Source: Oscillospiraceae bacterium
Lineage (GTDB): Bacteria > Bacillota > Clostridia > Oscillospirales > Oscillospiraceae
Direction: 5' to 3'
DNA: 49,769 bases
Assembly (NCBI GenBank): GCA_022795735.1
Contig: JAAWHG010000007.1
Location: 1-49,769 of the forward strand
Under the pieces are notes generated by a model. It ran no database searches and was not told the origin of the DNA. It saw only the letters and a list, made by a program, of their open reading frames with translations. The number at the start of each line of letters is the position of its first letter. The stretch's first letter is position 1. The translations under genes and the position numbers were made by a program. Of the stretch, positions 1,761-47,817 are shown piece after piece.

Positions 1761-3582
1761 CGCACACGTCCTCCCGGTTCAGCTTGTTTGCGCCACATCC
1801 GGAGCAGGCGGCCCGGCAGTCCGGCGTAATCTCAGAACGATAGGCCCGTTCCCGTTCGCTCCATAGGAAATCGCGGTCTACGCTTGCGGAAATGGTCTGC
1901 CAGGGCAGCAGTTCATCCTTTCCGATGGCGCGGGTGTAGAAGCTGGGATCAATCCCACAGCGTTGGAAAGCATCCAGCCATAAGTCATAGCGGAAATACT
2001 CGTCCCAGGCGTCCAGACGCGCGCCATTTTGAACGGCTTGCTCCAGAACGGCGCCAAGCCTGCGGTCTCCGCGCGCCAAAACCGCTTCTAAACGGCTTAA
2101 ATCAGGCGCGTGCCACTTGTAATCCACACTTTTGGCGTAAAGGTGCTCCTTGAGCAAACGCTGACGGCGGGTGTACTCCTCTGGCGGAATTTGCGCTTCC
2201 CATTGAAAGGGGGTGAACGGCTTTGGGACAAAGTAAGCGGTGGCGACGCTGATTTTACATCCCCGCTTACGGTTGGTGGCCTTGGCGCGCCAGGTTTGGA
2301 GAATCTTATACACCAGGTCGGCAATCCCAAGCACATCCTCGTCGGTTTCAGTGGGGAGGCCCAACATAAAGTAGAGCTTTACACTGCTCCAACCGCCCTC
2401 AAAGGCGACGGCGCAGGTCTCCAAAATTTCCGCCTCGGTCACATTTTTGTTGATTGCGTCCCGAAGACGCTGCGTCCCAGCCTCCGGCGCGAAGGTCAGG
2501 CCGCTCTTGCGGACCTTCTGCACCTTCATCATCAGCTCTCGAGAGAAATTGTCGGCCCGGAGAGAGGGGAGAGAGAGATTGATCTTTCGGGGATTGCAGT
2601 AATCCAGCAGACGGTCGGTCAGGGGGCCTAATTCCTTGTAGTCGGAGGTGGAAAGGCTGGAAAGCGTGATTTCATGGCTGCCTGAGTTGGAGAGGACTTC
2701 CTCGGCTTGCGCGGTGAGGACATCCGCACGCCGCCGCCGCACCGGCCGATAGGTGAATCCAGCCTGACAGAAGCGGCAGCCCCGGATACAGCCACGAAAC
2801 AGTTCGAGGTTGCAGCGGTCGTGGACAATTTCCGTTGAGGGGACCAAGTCGTGAACGGGGTAAAAGGCTTGATCCAAATCGTGTACAATCCGTTTGGTTA
2901 CGACAGCCGGCGCGCCGTCTTTGGGGGTAATGGCGCGAAGCGTACCGTCTTCATGATAGGCGTGGTCATAGAGAGAAGGGACATAAACGCCTTCAATTTT
3001 GGAAACGGCTAACAGAAAGCGCTCTTTTTCCCATCCCCCGGCTTTGGCCGCAGCGTAGAGCTCCAGGATTTCCACCGTGCTCTCCTCACCCTCTCCGAGG
3101 GAGAAAAAGTCGATGAAGTCAGCCAGCGGCTCCGGATTATACATACAGGCGCCGCCCGCAAATACAATGTTTTTTAAACCGGTACGTTCGGCGGCATGCA
3201 GCGGCACTTGAGCCAGATTCAGCATATTGAGCACATTGGCATAGCTCATCTCATAGCCGATGGTGAAGGCAATCAAGTCAAAATCCTTCACCGGCCGGTG
3301 GCTCTCCAAAGCCCAGAGGGGGATATTCCGGGCGCGCAGTTCCGCTTCCATGTCCCCCCAGGGCGCAAAGACACGTTGGCACCAGACGCGGGGCATCCGG
3401 TTCATCACACCGTAGAGAATCCGCATCCCAATGTTGGACATACCGATTTCATAGGTATCCGGGAAGCAGAAAGCAACCTGTACCTCCGCGTCCTCTTTGA
3501 CAATTTGGTTGTACTCACCGCCGACATATCGTGCGGGCTTTTGCACTCTTGGCAGAATGCGTTCCATCATTGGTGTCAGCAT
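1753..3582 (-). CDS. TIGR03960 family B12-binding-type radical SAM protein
   Basis: 609 residues. The N-terminal third resembles the B12-binding-like domain of this family (VQVAFCFPDTYEIGMSNIGM). The radical SAM core carries the 4Fe-4S motif in RGCIRGCRFCQAGF (CxxxCxxC), followed by the TIM-barrel-like stretch LTFAPEAGTQRLRDAINKN. The C-terminus ends in a Cys-rich tail (CRAACSGCGANK). ATG 3582 is chosen although an in-frame ATG exists at 3621: it begins 2 nt after the upstream stop (3584) and the 609-residue length fits the family, while the longer form would overlap the upstream gene by 38 nt. It is co-transcribed with the DUF2344 partner. Substrate unknown. Confidence 0.9.
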   Translation of the reverse strand: MLTPMMERILPRVQKPARYVGGEYNQIVKEDAEVQVAFCFPDTYEIGMSNIGMRILYGVMNRMPRVWCQRVFAPWGDMEAELRARNIPLWALESHRPVKDFDLIAFTIGYEMSYANVLNMLNLAQVPLHAAERTGLKNIVFAGGACMYNPEPLADFIDFFSLGEGEESTVEILELYAAAKAGGWEKERFLLAVSKIEGVYVPSLYDHAYHEDGTLRAITPKDGAPAVVTKRIVHDLDQAFYPVHDLVPSTEIVHDRCNLELFRGCIRGCRFCQAGFTYRPVRRRRADVLTAQAEEVLSNSGSHEITLSSLSTSDYKELGPLTDRLLDYCNPRKINLSLPSLRADNFSRELMMKVQKVRKSGLTFAPEAGTQRLRDAINKNVTEAEILETCAVAFEGGWSSVKLYFMLGLPTETDEDVLGIADLVYKILQTWRAKATNRKRGCKISVATAYFVPKPFTPFQWEAQIPPEEYTRRQRLLKEHLYAKSVDYKWHAPDLSRLEAVLARGDRRLGAVLEQAVQNGARLDAWDEYFRYDLWLDAFQRCGIDPSFYTRAIGKDELLPWQTISASVDRDFLWSERERAYRSEITPDCRAACSGCGANKLNREDVCDA

Positions 3583-26192: not shown

Positions 26193-26209
26193 AAACAAAC
26201 GCGGTGCCA

Positions 26210-26318
26210 TTGCCTCTTTCATCCAGACTTTAACTGTCGGTACCGGAATTACACCGGTTCTGCTGACGCTTGCGGACTTTGACCGCCGATCGGGAATTTC
26301 ACCCTGCCCTGAGGACGC
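26210..26318 (-). ncRNA. FMN riboswitch (RFN element)
   Basis: On the minus strand the conserved blocks appear in order: CAGGGCAGGGTGAAATTCCC, GATCGGCGGTCAAAGTCCGC, AACCGGTGTAATTCCGGTACC, GACAGTTAAAGTCTGGATG, closed by CCTC...GAGG for P1. This is the classic RFN aptamer. It binds FMN and switches off riboflavin uptake when flavin is abundant. It lies 70 nt upstream of ribU. Confidence 0.96.
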
Positions 26319-26468
26319 TTTTCAATTGTTCCATTGCTATTATAACATGGTCCTTCGGAAATGCAACTCTTTTTTTACGAATGATCTTGTGCTATAATAT
26401 CAAAAAAACGAAGCAGTGCAGGGAATAAGCTGTTGGAAAAGGTTATGTGTGGACTGGAGGAAGAGAAT

Positions 26469-36132: not shown

Positions 36133-36207
36133 ATGATGACACAAGATTTAGAGTTTGTTAAATCGTGTGCATTTACAATGTCCATATGGATTACTATGAC
36201 GGAGTAA
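36133..36207 (+). pseudogene. possible truncated 5' end of an interrupted gene
   Basis: A good AAGGAG lies 4-7 nt before ATG 36133/36136; the frame reads MMTQDLEFVKSCAF... and stops after 24 codons. It overlaps the 3' end of the leftward zinc-repeat gene. With NrdR boxes and a structured leader upstream, it may be the start of a host gene cut by insertion of the element. It could also be chance, since the RBS is the only positive evidence. Confidence 0.3.
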
Positions 36208-36726
36208 ATAACTGCTTACCTCTACAGTACGTCCACAGTTTTGACAAAGACATTTCCATCGAATTTCATTGCTCTTGATTTGTGCATTGGAAACTGGTTC
36301 TGTTACCAGAAGAAAACCAAATGTTTGTCCAACCAAATTATATTTGAGTTGGAATTTAGAGCAACCACATGACTTTGTTTTGCCACTGCGAAGATCGCTG
36401 GAGAAAACTGAAACAATAGTTCCACATTCACATTGACAGATCCATTTAACCTTTCTATATTTATGCACAGTATCCCTTTGCAGAACAGTAAGTTTGCCGA
36501 AGACCTTGCCGGTCAAATCAATAAGAGTGGATGATGGTTTATGACGAAGACAACCACAGGATTTAGTGCCATTTGCTTTTGTTAAATTCGTAGAGGATAC
36601 AATTGTTATATTGCCGCATTTGCATTGACATAACCACATAGGGCGCCCGGCTTTTTTAGATTCAACCTGTTTTATGACAGTTAATAATCCAATTGTTTTC
36701 CCACTTAAATCAATAAGTTTTCCCAT
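36148..36726 (-). CDS. triple zinc-ribbon-repeat protein of mobile elements
   Basis: 192 residues made of three copies of about 60 residues: DLSGKTIGLLTVIKQ...WLCQCKCG...SCGC, DLTGKVFGKLTVLQR...WICQCECG...SCGC, and NLVGQTFGFLLVTEP...WKCLCQNCG...HCKC. Each copy offers four Cys in a CxC...C, CxC pattern, consistent with a zinc site. Such repeats are common in phage and in HNH/AP2-type endonuclease-linked proteins, but no nuclease motif is seen here. It lies 11 nt after the integrase stop on the same strand, so it is probably co-transcribed. AT-rich like the rest of the element. Confidence 0.7.
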   Translation of the reverse strand: MGKLIDLSGKTIGLLTVIKQVESKKAGRPMWLCQCKCGNITIVSSTNLTKANGTKSCGCLRHKPSSTLIDLTGKVFGKLTVLQRDTVHKYRKVKWICQCECGTIVSVFSSDLRSGKTKSCGCSKFQLKYNLVGQTFGFLLVTEPVSNAQIKSNEIRWKCLCQNCGRTVEVSSYLLRHSNPYGHCKCTRFNKL

Positions 36727-36737
36727 TTTGAATTTAC

Positions 36738-38012
36738 CTAATTTATATGTATTTTCCCTTCAAGATTCGCGAAGGCTTCTTTCTTCTTCTCTTTTGTGGC
36801 TTCGGCATAAATGTTCAACGTTGTTTCAATATCAGCATGACCCATAATTTCTTGTATTACTTTAATGTTGCTTTCATTTTCACAAAATCTTGTACAAAAA
36901 GTATGACGAAGATTGTGTGCAGAGAAATGCCGTATCAACAATGGTTCGCGACCCTCTTTATCTGCCAAAACTGTCTCATCTTCGATATATGCTTTGCATA
37001 TACGATCTATACTTCGGTTGACATTATGTGGAGATAATGGTTCACCATAGCGATTTTGAAAAATGAAACCTGTAAATCCGTCCACAATAGACTCGTTAAA
37101 CCCAATAATTCTTTGCTTCTCCCATTCGGCTTTTAACGCTTCTCTTACTTCGGCAAGCATAGGGACAATTCGAATCCCAGCTTTGGTTTTAGGCGTAACA
37201 ATATGAAATCGCATTCTTTCTTCATCTTCATATTTTCGATAAACTAGATTATGATTAATGCTAATAATTCCCTCCTCAAAATCACAATCTTCCCATCGCA
37301 ACCCCACAGCTTCACCAATTCGACATCCAGTGCCAAGCAATACTATAAACAGCGGAAGCCAATGGTTATAGATTTTATGTTTAGATATATAATTGATAAA
37401 TGCTGTTTGTTCTGCAATAGTTAAGGCATGGCGTTTGGGTTTTTCCCAGTTGTGCGCTTTTTTGATTTCTGTCATAACCCCGTCTGTGGGGTTAAGTCGA
37501 ATATAACCGTCACGAACAGCAAGTGTAAAAACCGGATGAAGGATGGTGTGAATTATCTCCATACTATTTGGTTTAAAACCTTTTTCATATATTAGGCTAT
37601 TATAAAATGACTTGACATTAGAATACTTAATCTTTGCAATTTGTTGTTTACCAAAGTCATCTTTAATATATTTGCGATACATATACAAGTAATTACTGCG
37701 AGTTGATTCTTTTAACTCCTTTTTCCCAGACATATATAAATCAAATAAATTATTAACTGTGACCTTGTTTTCAACATATGATTTAATACCATCTTCTAAA
37801 TCGCGGACAACTTTTTTTTCTTTTTCTCTGAGACTAAGATCTGTTTTGCTGCCTGGTGGAGTTCGATCTGTGGGAACAAGTCGATTGCTATAAATATCGC
37901 GACGAATTCCTTCTGCATCTGTGTAACGATACCGATAAGAACCATCTTTTCGTTGTGATTCCCCATCTTTGAGGATTCTCCCTTTATTATCAGTTCGTTT
38001 CTTTCCGGCCAT
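36738..38012 (-). CDS. int: tyrosine recombinase integrase
   Basis: 424 residues, Tn916/phage-type integrase. The N-terminal arm-binding part has SYRYRYTDAEGIRRDIYSNR; a SAM-like core-binding domain follows (about 85-175). The catalytic domain has LGTGCRIGEAVGLRWEDC (Arg I), SAHNLRHTFCTRF (HxxR), MGHADIETTLNIYAEAT (His and nucleophilic Tyr), so all key residues are present. ATG 38012 follows AGGAGGATAATATAG. It should integrate and excise the accessory element whose left boundary lies near lysS. The matching att repeat was not found in the window. Confidence 0.95.
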   Translation of the reverse strand: MAGKKRTDNKGRILKDGESQRKDGSYRYRYTDAEGIRRDIYSNRLVPTDRTPPGSKTDLSLREKEKKVVRDLEDGIKSYVENKVTVNNLFDLYMSGKKELKESTRSNYLYMYRKYIKDDFGKQQIAKIKYSNVKSFYNSLIYEKGFKPNSMEIIHTILHPVFTLAVRDGYIRLNPTDGVMTEIKKAHNWEKPKRHALTIAEQTAFINYISKHKIYNHWLPLFIVLLGTGCRIGEAVGLRWEDCDFEEGIISINHNLVYRKYEDEERMRFHIVTPKTKAGIRIVPMLAEVREALKAEWEKQRIIGFNESIVDGFTGFIFQNRYGEPLSPHNVNRSIDRICKAYIEDETVLADKEGREPLLIRHFSAHNLRHTFCTRFCENESNIKVIQEIMGHADIETTLNIYAEATKEKKKEAFANLEGKIHIN

Positions 38013-42911: not shown

Positions 42912-45029
42912 ATGCGTATTATTAAACGTTCCGGTGAAGAAGTTGCTTTCAACAGGGAAAAAATTGAGGCGGCCGTCAAGAAAGCAAACCAGTCTGTGTG
43001 CGAGGCGGATCGCCTGCCGGAAGCCAGGATCAAACTGCTGGCAAGTATTGTGGAAGGCCGGTGTGAGGAACTGGGTCATATTCCGAATGTGGAAGAGGTT
43101 CAGGATATGGTCATCAAGGAACTTATGAAAACCACGTCGTACAATCTTGCGCAAAATTACATCATTTACCGTTTTCAGCACAATCAGATGCGGGGCAATA
43201 CTACGGACGCCGAGGTCCTGTCGATTGTCAACGGGACAAATGAAGAACTGCGCACTGAGAACGCCAACAAAGATGTCTCGATTGCGTCCACGCAACGGGA
43301 CTACATGGCGGGACAAACCAGCCGTGATGTCTCCCGCCGGCTTTTGCTGCCGGAGGAAATTGTCAGAGCGCATGATGAAGGCAAGATCCACTTCCATGAC
43401 ATGGACTTTTTCGCCCAGCGAATTCACAACTGCTGTCTGGTTGCGTTGGACGATATGCTTCAGAATGGCACCGTCATCACAGACACAATGGTTGAGAAGC
43501 CCCATAGTTTCTCTACTGCCTGCAACATTGCAACTCAAATTATTGCTCAGGTGGCGTCCAACCAGCACGGCGGCCAGACTATCACCCTGACCCACCTCGC
43601 GCCCTTTGTTGATGTCAGCCGGAAGGCAATTCGTAAAGAGGTGGAGGAAGAATTGTTGATGGCCGACGTTTCAAACGATTCCACAGCATACGATGCGCTG
43701 CGCGACGAGATTGTTGGGAAACGTCTTAGAAAAGAGATCGAAAAGGGGATCCAGACCATTCAGTATCAGATTCTGACAATCATGACAACCAACGGCCAGA
43801 CACCCTTTATCAGCATTTGCTGTTATCTGGGCGAGGCTGGAGACGATAAACTGCTTAAACACGATCTGGCGATGCTGATTGAGGAATTTTTCAAGCAGCG
43901 GATTCAGGGCATCAAGAACAAAGATGGCGTGTGGGTAACACCTTCATTTCCGAAGCTGCTGTACGTTCTTGAGGAGGACAATATCCATTCCGGTTCTCCA
44001 TACTGGTATCTTACAGAACTTGCCGCCAAATGCACGGCAAAGCGTATGGTTCCTGACTACATCAGTGAGAAGCAGATGAAGAAGTTGAAGATTGACGAAA
44101 ACGGCAATGGACAGGCTTACCCGTGCATGGGATGCCGGTCATTTCTCACTCCCTATGTAGATGAAAATGGCAAGCCGAAATACTACGGTCGCTTCAATCA
44201 AGGCGTCGTAAGCATCAATCTCCCATACGCGGCCCTCTCGTCTGAGGGAGACGTGGACAAATTCTGGAACATTCTCGAAGAAACACTTGAGCTTTGCCAT
44301 CGGGGGCTGAGGGCGAGGCATGAGCGGCTTTTGGGGACGCCGAGCGATATTGCGCCGATTCTCTGGCAGCACGGCGCTCTGGCGCGGCTCAAGCCCGGAG
44401 AGACCATCGACCGGCTGCTTTACGGTGGGTATTCCACTATCAGCCTTGGATATGCCGGTTTGTACGAGGCGGTTTATTACATGACCGGACATAGCCACAC
44501 TGACCCGGAAGGAAAACCTTTTGCCAAACAGATCATGCAGTATATGAACGACAAGTGCGCACAATGGCGCGAAGCGGAAAACATTGCGTACAGTCTGTAT
44601 GGCACACCTATCGAGTCCACAACTTACCGGTTCTCCAAACTGCTGCAAAAGAAGTTTGGAATTATTCACAACGTAACGGATCACGGGTACATCACAAATT
44701 CGTATCACGTCAATGTCCGGGAGAAGATCGACGCTTTCACAAAGCTTGACTTTGAGTCTGAATTTCAGGCGTTGTCTCCCGGTGGGGCAATCTCGTATGT
44801 CGAGGTTCCCAATATGCAAGACAATATCCCGGCGGTCCTCAACATCATCCAGTACATCTACGACAACATCATGTATGCTGAACTGAACACCAAGAGCGAC
44901 TATTGCCAGGAATGCGGATATGACGGTGAAATCAAAATCGTCGAGGAAGATGGCAAACTGATCTGGGAATGCCCGAAGTGCGGCAATCGTGACCAGACCA
45001 AAATGAATGTCGCTCGCCGGACCTGCGGT
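42912..45029 (+). CDS. nrdD: anaerobic ribonucleoside-triphosphate reductase NrdD, exon 1
   Basis: Residues 1-706 of a class III reductase that makes deoxynucleotides from NTPs. N-terminal ATP cone (MRIIKRSGEEVAFNREKIEA) for dATP control, active-site region YPCMGCRSFLTPY, zinc site CQECGY...ECPKCGN (CxxC twice), and RRTCG, whose Gly (codon 45027-45029) is the glycyl radical residue. Without splicing the frame would end nine codons later as RQTNIAAV, lacking the conserved tail. With exon 2 (45929-46018) the protein is 735 residues, as usual for the family. ATG 42912 follows AAAGGAG. NrdG (46080) activates it. Confidence 0.95.
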
Positions 45030-45928
45030 AGACAAACCAATATTGCCGCAGTATAAAACGATAGAAATTCAAGGGAAGCCCGAGCTGAGTATATCAGCCA
45101 GGTAATCTTGAGCCAAGTTTATCAACATATTTTATATTTAACAGAAGGGAGGTGGCGGGAATGCCTTATGTTTGTGAAGTGTGCGGACGGGAAATGTTCA
45201 GAAAGATAAAATCACACGGACATATTTTCTGCAATAAACATTACAAACAACTCAAAAAATATGGTCATGTGCTGGATAGTAATCCAAGGACAATACTTGA
45301 TAAGAATGAGTTTCATGTGGATGGCAATATTACATACATTGATCTCTATGATAAAGAGTGTAATGTGATTGCACAGGCAATGATTGACACAGAAGATATT
45401 CATAAAGTCAAATATACAAAATGGAAGCTGTCTAACTCCGGCTATGCTATGAATACACCAAAATTCTCTGGCGGAAGCAAACATATGTCCCATGAAATTC
45501 TTGGAACCAATGAGTTTGTAGATCATATCAATCACAATAAATTAGATAATCGGAAGAGCAATTTAAGAGTAGTTTCGAGAGCGCAAAATCAAATGAATGT
45601 AAATTATAAGGGTGTATCAAAAACAAAAAGTGGAAAGTATTATGCGCATATAAAACTAAATCAAAAATTGCTTAATTTAGGCGTATATATTTTTATGGAA
45701 GAGGCATATTTCGCCAGATGGTACGCTGAAACAATTTTATTTGGCGAATACCGCTTTCCAAAAGAAAAACCGTACATTCTCCCAGACAGAGAATATGAAA
45801 TTATGGAATATGTTGATAAAAAGGTGCAACGACTGTAATTATCGGCGTCGCTCAACCAAATGAAATGGAGAGGACGTAAGGAACAGTCTACTCCCCTGAT
45901 AAATATCGGGAAACCGAGGGTAGTAAGG
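45030..45928 (+). ncRNA. group I self-splicing intron in nrdD
   Basis: 899 nt. P1: exon CTGCGGT (45023-45029) pairs with GCCGCAG (45045-45051) with U-G at the splice site. P10: CCAATAT (45037-45043) pairs with exon-2 ATATTGG (45930-45936). Core: P-like AATTCAAGGGAAGCCC (45066-45081), Q-like AATCTTGAGCCAAG (45104-45117), P7 GACTGT (45831-45836) / ACAGTC (45883-45888). The last intron base is G (45928). The insertion is phase 0, directly after the radical Gly codon. It carries an HNH endonuclease gene. Subgroup not assigned. Confidence 0.93.
45161..45838 (+). CDS. intron-encoded HNH homing endonuclease with AP2-like domain
   Basis: 225 residues. N-terminal zinc finger (YVCEVCGREMFRKIKSHGHI, then FCNKHY), HNH core EFVDHINHNKLDNRKSNLR (about 118-136), and a C-terminal AP2-like DNA-binding domain (GVSKTKSGKYYAHIKLNQKL). 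This is the usual architecture of group I intron homing enzymes, which cut intronless alleles to spread the intron. ATG 45161 has GGGAGG 8 nt upstream. Its stop codon lies in the 5' strand of P7 (QRL-stop = CAACGACTGTAA), so coding and ribozyme core overlap. Confidence 0.88.
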   Translation: MPYVCEVCGREMFRKIKSHGHIFCNKHYKQLKKYGHVLDSNPRTILDKNEFHVDGNITYIDLYDKECNVIAQAMIDTEDIHKVKYTKWKLSNSGYAMNTPKFSGGSKHMSHEILGTNEFVDHINHNKLDNRKSNLRVVSRAQNQMNVNYKGVSKTKSGKYYAHIKLNQKLLNLGVYIFMEEAYFARWYAETILFGEYRFPKEKPYILPDREYEIMEYVDKKVQRL

Positions 45929-46018
45929 TATATTGGCACACAATTTTGGAACCAGGGCCGGACAGAGGAGATCAGGGACCGTGTACTGCACGTCAGCACG
46001 TCCGCCCTGACGGAATAG
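45929..46018 (+). CDS. nrdD: nrdD exon 2
   Basis: 29 codons and TAG: YIGTQFWNQGRTEEIRDRVL then HV and a short tail. This is the highly conserved C-terminus that follows RRTCG in NrdD proteins and completes the glycyl radical loop. No start codon or RBS of its own, so it is only expressed through splicing of the intron at 45030-45928. Confidence 0.95.
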   Translation, partial: YIGTQFWNQGRTEEIRDRVLHVSTSALTE

Positions 46019-46079: not shown

Positions 46080-46613
46080 ATGTATATCGGTGAAATATTA
46101 AAAGCGGATACAGCAAATGGGCTGGGGATGAGAGTTACACTTTTTGTTTCCGGTTGTACAAATCACTGTCCTGGCTGTTTTCAGCCCCAAACATGGGATT
46201 TTACATACGGTCAGCCTTATACACCGGCAGTCGAGGAAATGATTATGCAGGAGCTTGCCAAGCCCTATTATCAAGGACTGACATTACTGGGCGGAGAGCC
46301 GTTTGAACCCTGCAATCAAAGAGAACTTGTCAAGCTCATCCGGCGGGTTCGGAGAGAAATGCCGGGGAAAGACATCTGGGCGTATACGGGGTTTACGCTT
46401 GAGAAGGATCTGGGCGAAGGAGGAAGGAAGTGGACAGAAGTAACGGAAGAAATTCTCAGGAATATTGATATTCTCGTAGATGGAAGATTCGAGCAAGATA
46501 AAAAGGATGTTTCTTTGAAATTCCGAGGATCGGCAAACCAGAGAATCATTGATATGAACAAAACAGTTTCCACAGGAAAGACGATTCTATCTTTGCTAAA
46601 TGGAAATTCTTGA
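46080..46613 (+). CDS. nrdG: anaerobic ribonucleotide reductase activase NrdG
   Basis: 177 residues, radical SAM protein. FVSGCTNHCPGCFQPQTWDF holds the CxxxCxxC 4Fe-4S motif; GLTLLGGEPFEPCNQ is the SAM-binding GGE motif. It generates the glycyl radical on NrdD using SAM. GGAGG lies 5 nt before ATG 46080, 62 nt after the nrdD exon 2 stop. Length and ending are complete. Confidence 0.95.
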   Translation: MYIGEILKADTANGLGMRVTLFVSGCTNHCPGCFQPQTWDFTYGQPYTPAVEEMIMQELAKPYYQGLTLLGGEPFEPCNQRELVKLIRRVRREMPGKDIWAYTGFTLEKDLGEGGRKWTEVTEEILRNIDILVDGRFEQDKKDVSLKFRGSANQRIIDMNKTVSTGKTILSLLNGNS

Positions 46614-47409: not shown

Positions 47410-47817
47410 GTGAAATTGAGGAAGGTAATGAAACATATTATCCCTGGCCTGCTCTTGGCTGTCACAATGCTGCTGTGTATGTGTTCCTGCACGGAAAGCA
47501 ACAAGGTTTCATACAATATCTCGCAGCAGGCCGACAACTTCAACGCGACGCGGAAAATAACCGTCGTCAACATTCGGGACAACACAATCCTGTATGAGTT
47601 GATCGGAAAGTGTTCTTTGAAGAACGAAGGGAACAATGAGCTGTCCGTAATCAGTGAGGTTTCACCGGGTACATACAAAAAAGATTTCATTTACCTCAGC
47701 GAGTGGACAACATACATTGTTCAGGACGTGTCCGGCGCTTATGTCGATCAATATCATTACGAGGTCAACATTCTTCCGCAGATGATTGGTGGAATAAGCG
47801 TTACGTCGAATGATTAA
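47410..47817 (+). CDS. phage-type beta-sandwich lipoprotein
   Basis: 135 residues: a signal peptide (HIIPGLLLAVTMLLCMCSC) with lipobox-like Cys near residue 25-27, then a beta-rich domain (NISQQADNFNATRKITVVNI, RDNTILYELIGKC, VSPGTYKKDFIYLSEWTTYI, YHYEVNILPQMI). The layout AADNF..R.I...N..T...L..I.G.CS....YKK...L...TTY matches phage 'beta-sandwich lipoproteins' as I recall them; in some phages such proteins are suspected in superinfection exclusion. The start is uncertain: GTG 47410 or TTG 47416, both near AAGGAG. Confidence 0.65.
   Translation: MKLRKVMKHIIPGLLLAVTMLLCMCSCTESNKVSYNISQQADNFNATRKITVVNIRDNTILYELIGKCSLKNEGNNELSVISEVSPGTYKKDFIYLSEWTTYIVQDVSGAYVDQYHYEVNILPQMIGGISVTSND

Follow-up and report, generated by a model that had tools for sequence, protein, structure and literature searches.

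More than 100 group I introns have been curated in ribonucleotide reductase (RNR) genes (PMC2795772), and six cases of split phage nrdD are recorded in the available part of a second source (PMC3653736). Group I introns are few in bacterial protein-coding genes; those in Bacillus recA, nrdE and nrdF, which share this type of host gene with the intron described here, are thought to be of phage origin, and the portion of a 2014 review at hand sees little evidence of movement between bacterial species (PMC3984707). In the Jug phages of the gut, group I introns or inteins interrupt nrdD in 95 of 104 genomes, and the accessible sections of that report mention splicing of some of the introns as visible in transcript reads (PMC12363816). 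The T4 td intron has the 3' end of its endonuclease gene, I-TevI, inside the structured core, an overlap of gene and ribozyme core that the obtainable text describes for I-TevI and others (PMC2988022). The T4 nrdD (sunY) intron with I-TevII combines a group I intron and an endonuclease gene within a class III RNR gene, as does the locus analysed here.

The window, which we define as the whole stretch analysed (49,769 nt, contig JAAWHG010000007.1 of an Oscillospiraceae bacterium), contains an nrdD gene that is split in phase 0 right after the predicted radical-glycine codon. We consider, with a probability of about 0.9, that the 899-nt insert is a group I intron, likely self-splicing, with an HNH-family gene whose predicted role is to let the intron home into uninterrupted copies of the site. 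The genes and boundaries concerned are as follows.

42912 to 45029, plus strand: nrdD exon 1, residues 1-706; the last codon, GGT, encodes the predicted radical glycine
45030 to 45928, plus strand: group I intron, 899 nt, phase 0, inserted directly after the Gly706 codon
45054 to 45056, plus strand: TAA in the exon 1 frame, 8 codons inside the intron
45161 to 45838, plus strand: HNH_3 endonuclease gene within the intron, 225 aa, with GGGAGGTGG ahead of the ATG
45929 to 46018, plus strand: nrdD exon 2, beginning YIGTQFWNQGRT, plus stop
46080 to 46613, plus strand: nrdG, the activating enzyme (TIGR02491, 177.5 bits, cut-off 126.1)

The protein is an NrdD by its match to NF006732 (858.9 bits, cut-off 657), with PF13597 also matched, and the window contains the features of a class III RNR: an ATP cone, the NRDD core, the RRTCGY radical loop and an adjacent nrdG. 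The radical loop is continuous only once the exons are joined. The open frame at 42912-45056 terminates RRTCG-RQTNIAAV-stop, and the missing tail restarts at 45929; exon 1 is free of internal stops, and the sequence of exon 2 is still that of an NrdD. A spliced aligner using a profile of 26 rows, including the joined protein of the window, placed a single intron at 45030-45928 between RRTCG and YIGTQ. The same boundaries were obtained when the profile was built from 24 other NrdD proteins without interruption, whether or not splice-site bases were given a bonus, so the coordinates and phase proposed in an earlier note on this DNA are exact. Its expectation that annotation would call the gene truncated also holds, as plain ORF calling yields the truncated frame. 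Gly706 aligns with G697 of PDB 9d3x, and Cys705 with Cys579 of T4 NrdD, in which the radical is located at Gly580 according to the part of the literature available to us. An intein was rejected for the window because the insert has in-phase stops, and an assembly artefact because the identical insertion position is present in other contigs. A stop codon lies 2-21 codons inside the intron in all eight same-site carriers.

The HNH protein matches the HNH_3 domain (PF13392, 35.6 bits, cut-off 24.8), its frame in the window is intact, and 776 homologues were retained at E up to 0.001 from 844 candidates. Two collection scans with an HNH alignment as query matched 45 loci; a single HNH protein as query found nothing among viral contigs, where the alignment did. 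Eight of the 45 are at least 54% identical, and every one of these is an nrdD gene with an intron after residue 706. They comprise L033, L034 and L035 (Clostridia MAGs) and five IMG/VR phage contigs, L042-L046, which are listed again as L134-L138. Three of the five (L042, L043 and L044) share one identical intron, counted once, and the eight loci therefore represent six distinct introns. The other 37 matched loci (45% identity or less) showed no nrdD. A further carrier, L244, whose HNH protein is 45% identical, was found via an exon-end pattern followed by a residue other than Tyr; this pattern returned 15 stretches, six being nrdD with a phase 0 intron and nine lacking an nrdD match. When base bonuses are removed the boundary is unchanged in seven of the eight carriers and moves by one codon in L046. 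An exact 5' core pattern of this lineage recovered five viral contigs, all nrdD carriers already identified. Among the carriers, HNH identity and NrdD identity are correlated (0.49, 21 pairs), which we do not take as proof. One intron lineage is found at a single codon junction across distant NrdD lineages, both bacterial and phage.

The nrdD gene of L035 lacks a match in its middle (2197-3021, residues 175-424), possibly through rearrangement or breakage; the same MAG has an intact copy elsewhere. A P7-P9 pattern matched 105 viral stretches; 80 of these were listed and examined, most of them without nrdD. This near-constant 39-nt element (L139-L218 for the 80 listed) is a convenient probe for a large class of phage group I introns.

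In group I introns the 5' splice site carries a U.G pair, and the last intron base is G. The window's intron ends in G, and the U.G pair is present in all eight same-site introns. The helices read from the window are given below; P1 (seven pairs with U.G), P10 (seven pairs), P7 (six pairs) and the terminal G had been proposed in the earlier note and are all present.

45023 to 45051, plus strand: P1, CTGCGGT (45023-45029, the Thr-Cys-Gly codons) with GCCGCAG (45045-45051), seven pairs, U.G at the splice site
45037 to 45043, plus strand: P10 guide CCAATAT, seven pairs with exon 2 at 45930-45936; weak among relatives
45059 to 45063, plus strand: P3 5' strand CGATA, with TATCG at 45840-45844
45069 to 45111, plus strand: P4, TCAAGG (45069-45074) with TCTTGA (45106-45111)
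45112 to 45126, plus strand: P6 5' strands, GCC and TTTATCAAC, with 3' strands at 45812-45820 and 45823-45825, within the HNH gene
45812 to 45836, plus strand: end of the HNH gene that is also ribozyme core, holding the P6 3' strands and the P7 5' strand GACTGT (45831-45836)
45846 to 45876, plus strand: P8, 45846-45857 with 45867-45876
45883 to 45888, plus strand: P7 3' strand ACAGTC, six pairs with 45831-45836
45890 to 45921, plus strand: P9, ACTCCC (45890-45895) with GGGT (45918-45921)

P1, P3, P4, P6, P7 and P8 are intact in the window. For covariation analysis we aligned the cores of the eight distinct introns at the Gly706 junction, excluding the coding part; the structure used for counting was read from the first seven, and L244 was added after it had been fixed. 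The core helices P3-P4-P6-P7-P8 are present with P7 pairing across P3, the sixth P7 pair being absent in two of the eight. Across the core helices 92.8% of cells are paired, and two-sided changes occur at 24 of 56 pairs. Neither value was reached by any of 500 shuffles, which do not remove relatedness, and when the partners were displaced by 1 to 3 columns, pairing fell to 36-43% and two-sided changes to 2-7 pairs. Further pair types, one of five covariation measures, did not exceed the shuffles (155 of 500 reach the observed value). P9 shows no two-sided changes among the eight introns, and P10 is paired in just 71.4% of cells. In L244, P3 (TGGTT/AACCA), distal P6, P8a and P8b are perfect though the letters differ. 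P1 pairing tracks the third, silent base of the Cys705 codon, with a CG pair in 3/8, a UA pair in 4/8 and a broken pair in 1/8. On these data the nrdD insert reads as a group I intron with a covarying ribozyme core, directly after the radical-glycine codon as the earlier note had placed it. P7.1 and P7.2 between P7 and P3 mark subgroup IA, which is usual in T-even phages; only 3 nt (45837-45839) separate P7 and P3 here, which by this rule alone argues against subgroup IA.

The general Rfam model, RF00028, had been suggested as a check, and its outcome is divided. The window gives a fragment match of 21.9 bits (E 0.0047, model positions 60-138 of 253), below the curated cut-off of 50, a detection threshold rather than a definition of group I introns; at the gathering threshold the intron is not reported. 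The single Rfam match at that threshold is an FMN riboswitch elsewhere in the window (26207-26320, minus strand, 103 bits). RF00028 found nothing further in the window's own genome, and among nine loci with nrdD inserts it matched L122 alone (E up to 1) and was therefore not used to judge the remaining inserts. Comparative covariation is the stronger test for this intron.

A covarying core also bears on the idea that the exons are translated separately and yield a functional NrdD in pieces with no need of splicing, on the model of a split phage nrdA; functional split genes are known, Aeh1 nrdA being the example given in the accessible part of the literature (PMC3653736). A 52-codon frame with an ATG at 45860 does extend through exon 2; however, it crosses the conserved P7-P9 region, and the exon 1 product would end in intron-coded residues just after the radical glycine. 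We regard translation in pieces as very improbable, and splicing of a group I intron as the far better account.

The end of the HNH gene coincides with the ribozyme core. The codons V-D-K form the distal P6 3' strand and R-L-stop contain the P7 5' strand; an alignment of 32 homologues shows Y217 as invariant and V218, K221, V222, Q223, R224 and L225 as nearly so. The letters of these conserved C-terminal codons therefore seem to serve protein and ribozyme together. By the scheme that we favour, guanosine would attack at the U.G pair after GGU, P10 would aid the alignment of exon 2, and ligation of the exons would give a continuous NrdD; the HNH protein would cut an uninterrupted nrdD near the site, and repair would copy the intron in. 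Splicing and homing are both deduced here from sequence. The HNH gene is present in one of 400 genomes searched in the family, namely the window's own, and intron DNA in one of 60 relatives searched. The earlier note overlooked the HNH gene, its overlap with the core, the recurrence at the same site and the mobile island described below.

A second intron lineage enters one base downstream, after the first base of the next codon (phase 1), with inserts of 275-779 nt. Like the window intron these are group I-like inserts at the radical-glycine codon, and the P9 sequence is shared by L109/L205; unlike it they enter in phase 1 and have their own guide, GTCCAC or GCCCAC. A one-base-later pattern returned eight stretches, seven being nrdD with a phase 1 intron and one without a match; the lineage was thus found in seven contigs (six distinct), and the addition of L078 and L144 brings it to eight distinct members (L078, L144, L205, L254, L255, L258, L259 and L260). 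L109, L121 and L205 are one contig, and L257 equals L258 over the stretches compared and was counted once. L144 was absent from the one-base-later matches and was caught by the P7-P9 pattern; the patterns therefore missed at least one member. An HNH match is absent in five of the six distinct second-lineage contigs searched, and the match in L255 falls outside the intron.

The two lineages occupy different glycine codons. Since the P1 guide pairs with the Cys705-Gly706 codons, the silent third base of the glycine codon belongs to the splice site, where group I introns need a U. The HNH lineage sits on GGT in 8/8. The second lineage sits on GGA in 7/8, each with the guide GTCCAC, and on GGG in one (L144), where the guide is GCCCAC, a matching change; the base therefore agrees with the guide as T with G (8/8) in the HNH lineage, and as A with U (7/8) or G with C (1/8) in the second. 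The patterns that recovered viral members placed no constraint on this base. Among 79 distinct empty sites (54 from 56 host loci and 25 from 39 viral or phage loci) we counted GGC 44, GGT 21, GGA 9 and GGG 5; GGC, at 44/79, is occupied by neither lineage. In a first comparison with 40 empty sites, a set that includes possible duplicates, the third base of Gly706 was the only site within 24 bases either side that was fixed in the eight carriers and variable in the empties.

We suggest tentatively, at somewhat less than even odds, that the radical-glycine codon serves as a landing site for which two group I lineages compete, both reading its silent letter: the HNH lineage would accept GGT only, through the U.G splice pair, the second lineage GGA, or GGG with a matching guide, and both would be barred by GGC, which is the codon used most often in this bacterial family. 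L144 shows that a guide can adapt, and codon exclusion therefore need not last. The pattern may instead be unrelated to guide pairing, if the carriers are merely AT-rich or if flanking letters were copied by homing, in which case the letter at Gly706 may be a consequence of homing. Local GC is indeed 0.44 in carriers against 0.58 in host empties, and the third bases of Arg702 (p 0.023) and residue 708 (p 0.021) likewise differ between carriers and empties; the GGT excess against viral empties alone has a p of only 0.010, and the related sequences are not independent. However, all four letters occur among viral empties of comparable GC (0.47), Gly706 alone of eight third positions tested is T in all eight carriers, and two lineages in AT-rich genes use different letters, each matching its own guide. 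We therefore think such an origin somewhat unlikely, and prefer, with the reserve expressed above, a cause in the pairing between guide and codon. If that is correct, synonymous choice at one codon would amount to heritable resistance to a selfish RNA. It would explain why in four genomes an nrdD without the intron persists alongside a resident homing endonuclease, the co-resident intact copies having GGC, GGA, GGC and GGA, and the pattern offers a simple testable rule on which genes are open to invasion.

The intact copy in the window's genome is a complete second nrdD (G000:C13:34513-36645), a 736-residue open frame with RRTCGYIGTQYW unbroken. Because of this copy, the claim in the earlier note that every active NrdD molecule here requires splicing does not stand; that the intron is absent from it also counts against the homing scheme. 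The C13 protein is 64% identical to the window copy and 80-81% identical to two same-genus copies and one family copy (L128-L130); the window NrdD is 63-68% identical to the six copies compared. In the NrdD tree 31 of 32 host-labelled rows form one clade (99/93), including the C13 copy, and the window copy falls outside it, grouped with L007 (94/84, not starred). The tree contains three carriers (the window, L033 and L045), which occupy three places and so speak for movement of the intron; starred branches force at least two changes, and long branches are flagged. L007 (G070:C50:4782-6890) is the only other family copy outside the host clade, on a long branch with the window copy, and is possibly a further nrdD acquired by transfer.

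The first 36 kb or so of the window consist of ordinary chromosome (a lysyl-type tRNA synthetase, FtsX, RecG and others). Beyond this point GC falls from 0.55 to 0.36-0.47, and the low-GC stretch that holds nrdDG includes the following two genes.

36738 to 38012, minus strand: Tn916-type integrase, at the start of the low-GC stretch
47410 to 47817, plus strand: match to a recombination directionality factor family (phrog_478; Pfam: Phage_VG64)

A second HNH-type gene (36148-36726, minus strand, phrog_374) directly adjoins the integrase. A search for island-end direct repeats of 16 bases or more found none; the far end may lie past the contig. The split nrdDG-intron unit was very likely brought in by an integrative element, joining the uninterrupted nrdD that belongs to the host. 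The intron could be a relic that no longer splices, in a split copy that is dispensable since the second nrdD supplies the enzyme: a complete second nrdD is also present in the other three carrier MAGs, and the split copy lies on the integrated element. We hold this to be improbable, as the intron has kept P1, P3, P4, P6, P7 and P8 unbroken, together with an exon 1 free of internal stops, an exon 2 that is still NrdD and an open HNH frame. A functional, splicing intron remains the preferred reading.

Several other nrdD inserts were observed. A single phage nrdD (L116, IMGVR_UViG_3300043080_000589, 68500-77500, minus strand) has ten intervening sequences, all with in-phase stops, after residues 162, 171, 295, 347, 405, 431, 513, 566, 599 and 706 of the window NrdD, the boundaries at 171, 405 and 431 being uncertain. 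The P7-like strand ATAGTC lies near the 3' end in nine of the ten; none of the ten gave an RF00028 match at E up to 1, and a P1 test on them gave a weak result. Seven of 34 viral nrdD loci (L104, L105, L106, L107, L109, L111 and L112) have inserts at several conserved sites, L109 alone of these being interrupted at the radical-glycine codon. Inserts of 879-1131 nt near conserved NrdD cysteines (L078/L079 at about 173, L046 at about 393-408 and L109 at 408) are open in phase, and are therefore probably inteins.

Set beside the described systems, the window intron shows the following differences. The T4 nrdD intron, to which the earlier note compared it, does interrupt the same gene, but at another site, between residues 264 and 286 in window NrdD numbering, and with a GIY-YIG rather than an HNH endonuclease; the T4 NrdD tail RRTCGYLG is unbroken, unlike the split tail of the window. 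The td intron lies in another gene and I-TevI is likewise a GIY-YIG endonuclease. The Bacillus introns occupy other genes and other sites. The Jug phages infect Bacteroides or Phocaeicola, and the radical-glycine site is not named in the available sections of that report (PMC12363816). In the literature covered by our search, to which most subscription journals are external and in which sources were available in part, no description of an intron at the radical-glycine codon was found. Annotation would label the split nrdD truncated, and the general Rfam model misses the intron at its cut-off. Homing-type group I introns are known; what is new is this location, with its interesting site pattern. 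The same intron lineage is found at one junction in distant bacterial and phage NrdD, in the window on an apparent integrative island, and a splice-site U on the synonymous position of the radical codon, with the guide of a second lineage tracking the same position, is new to us.
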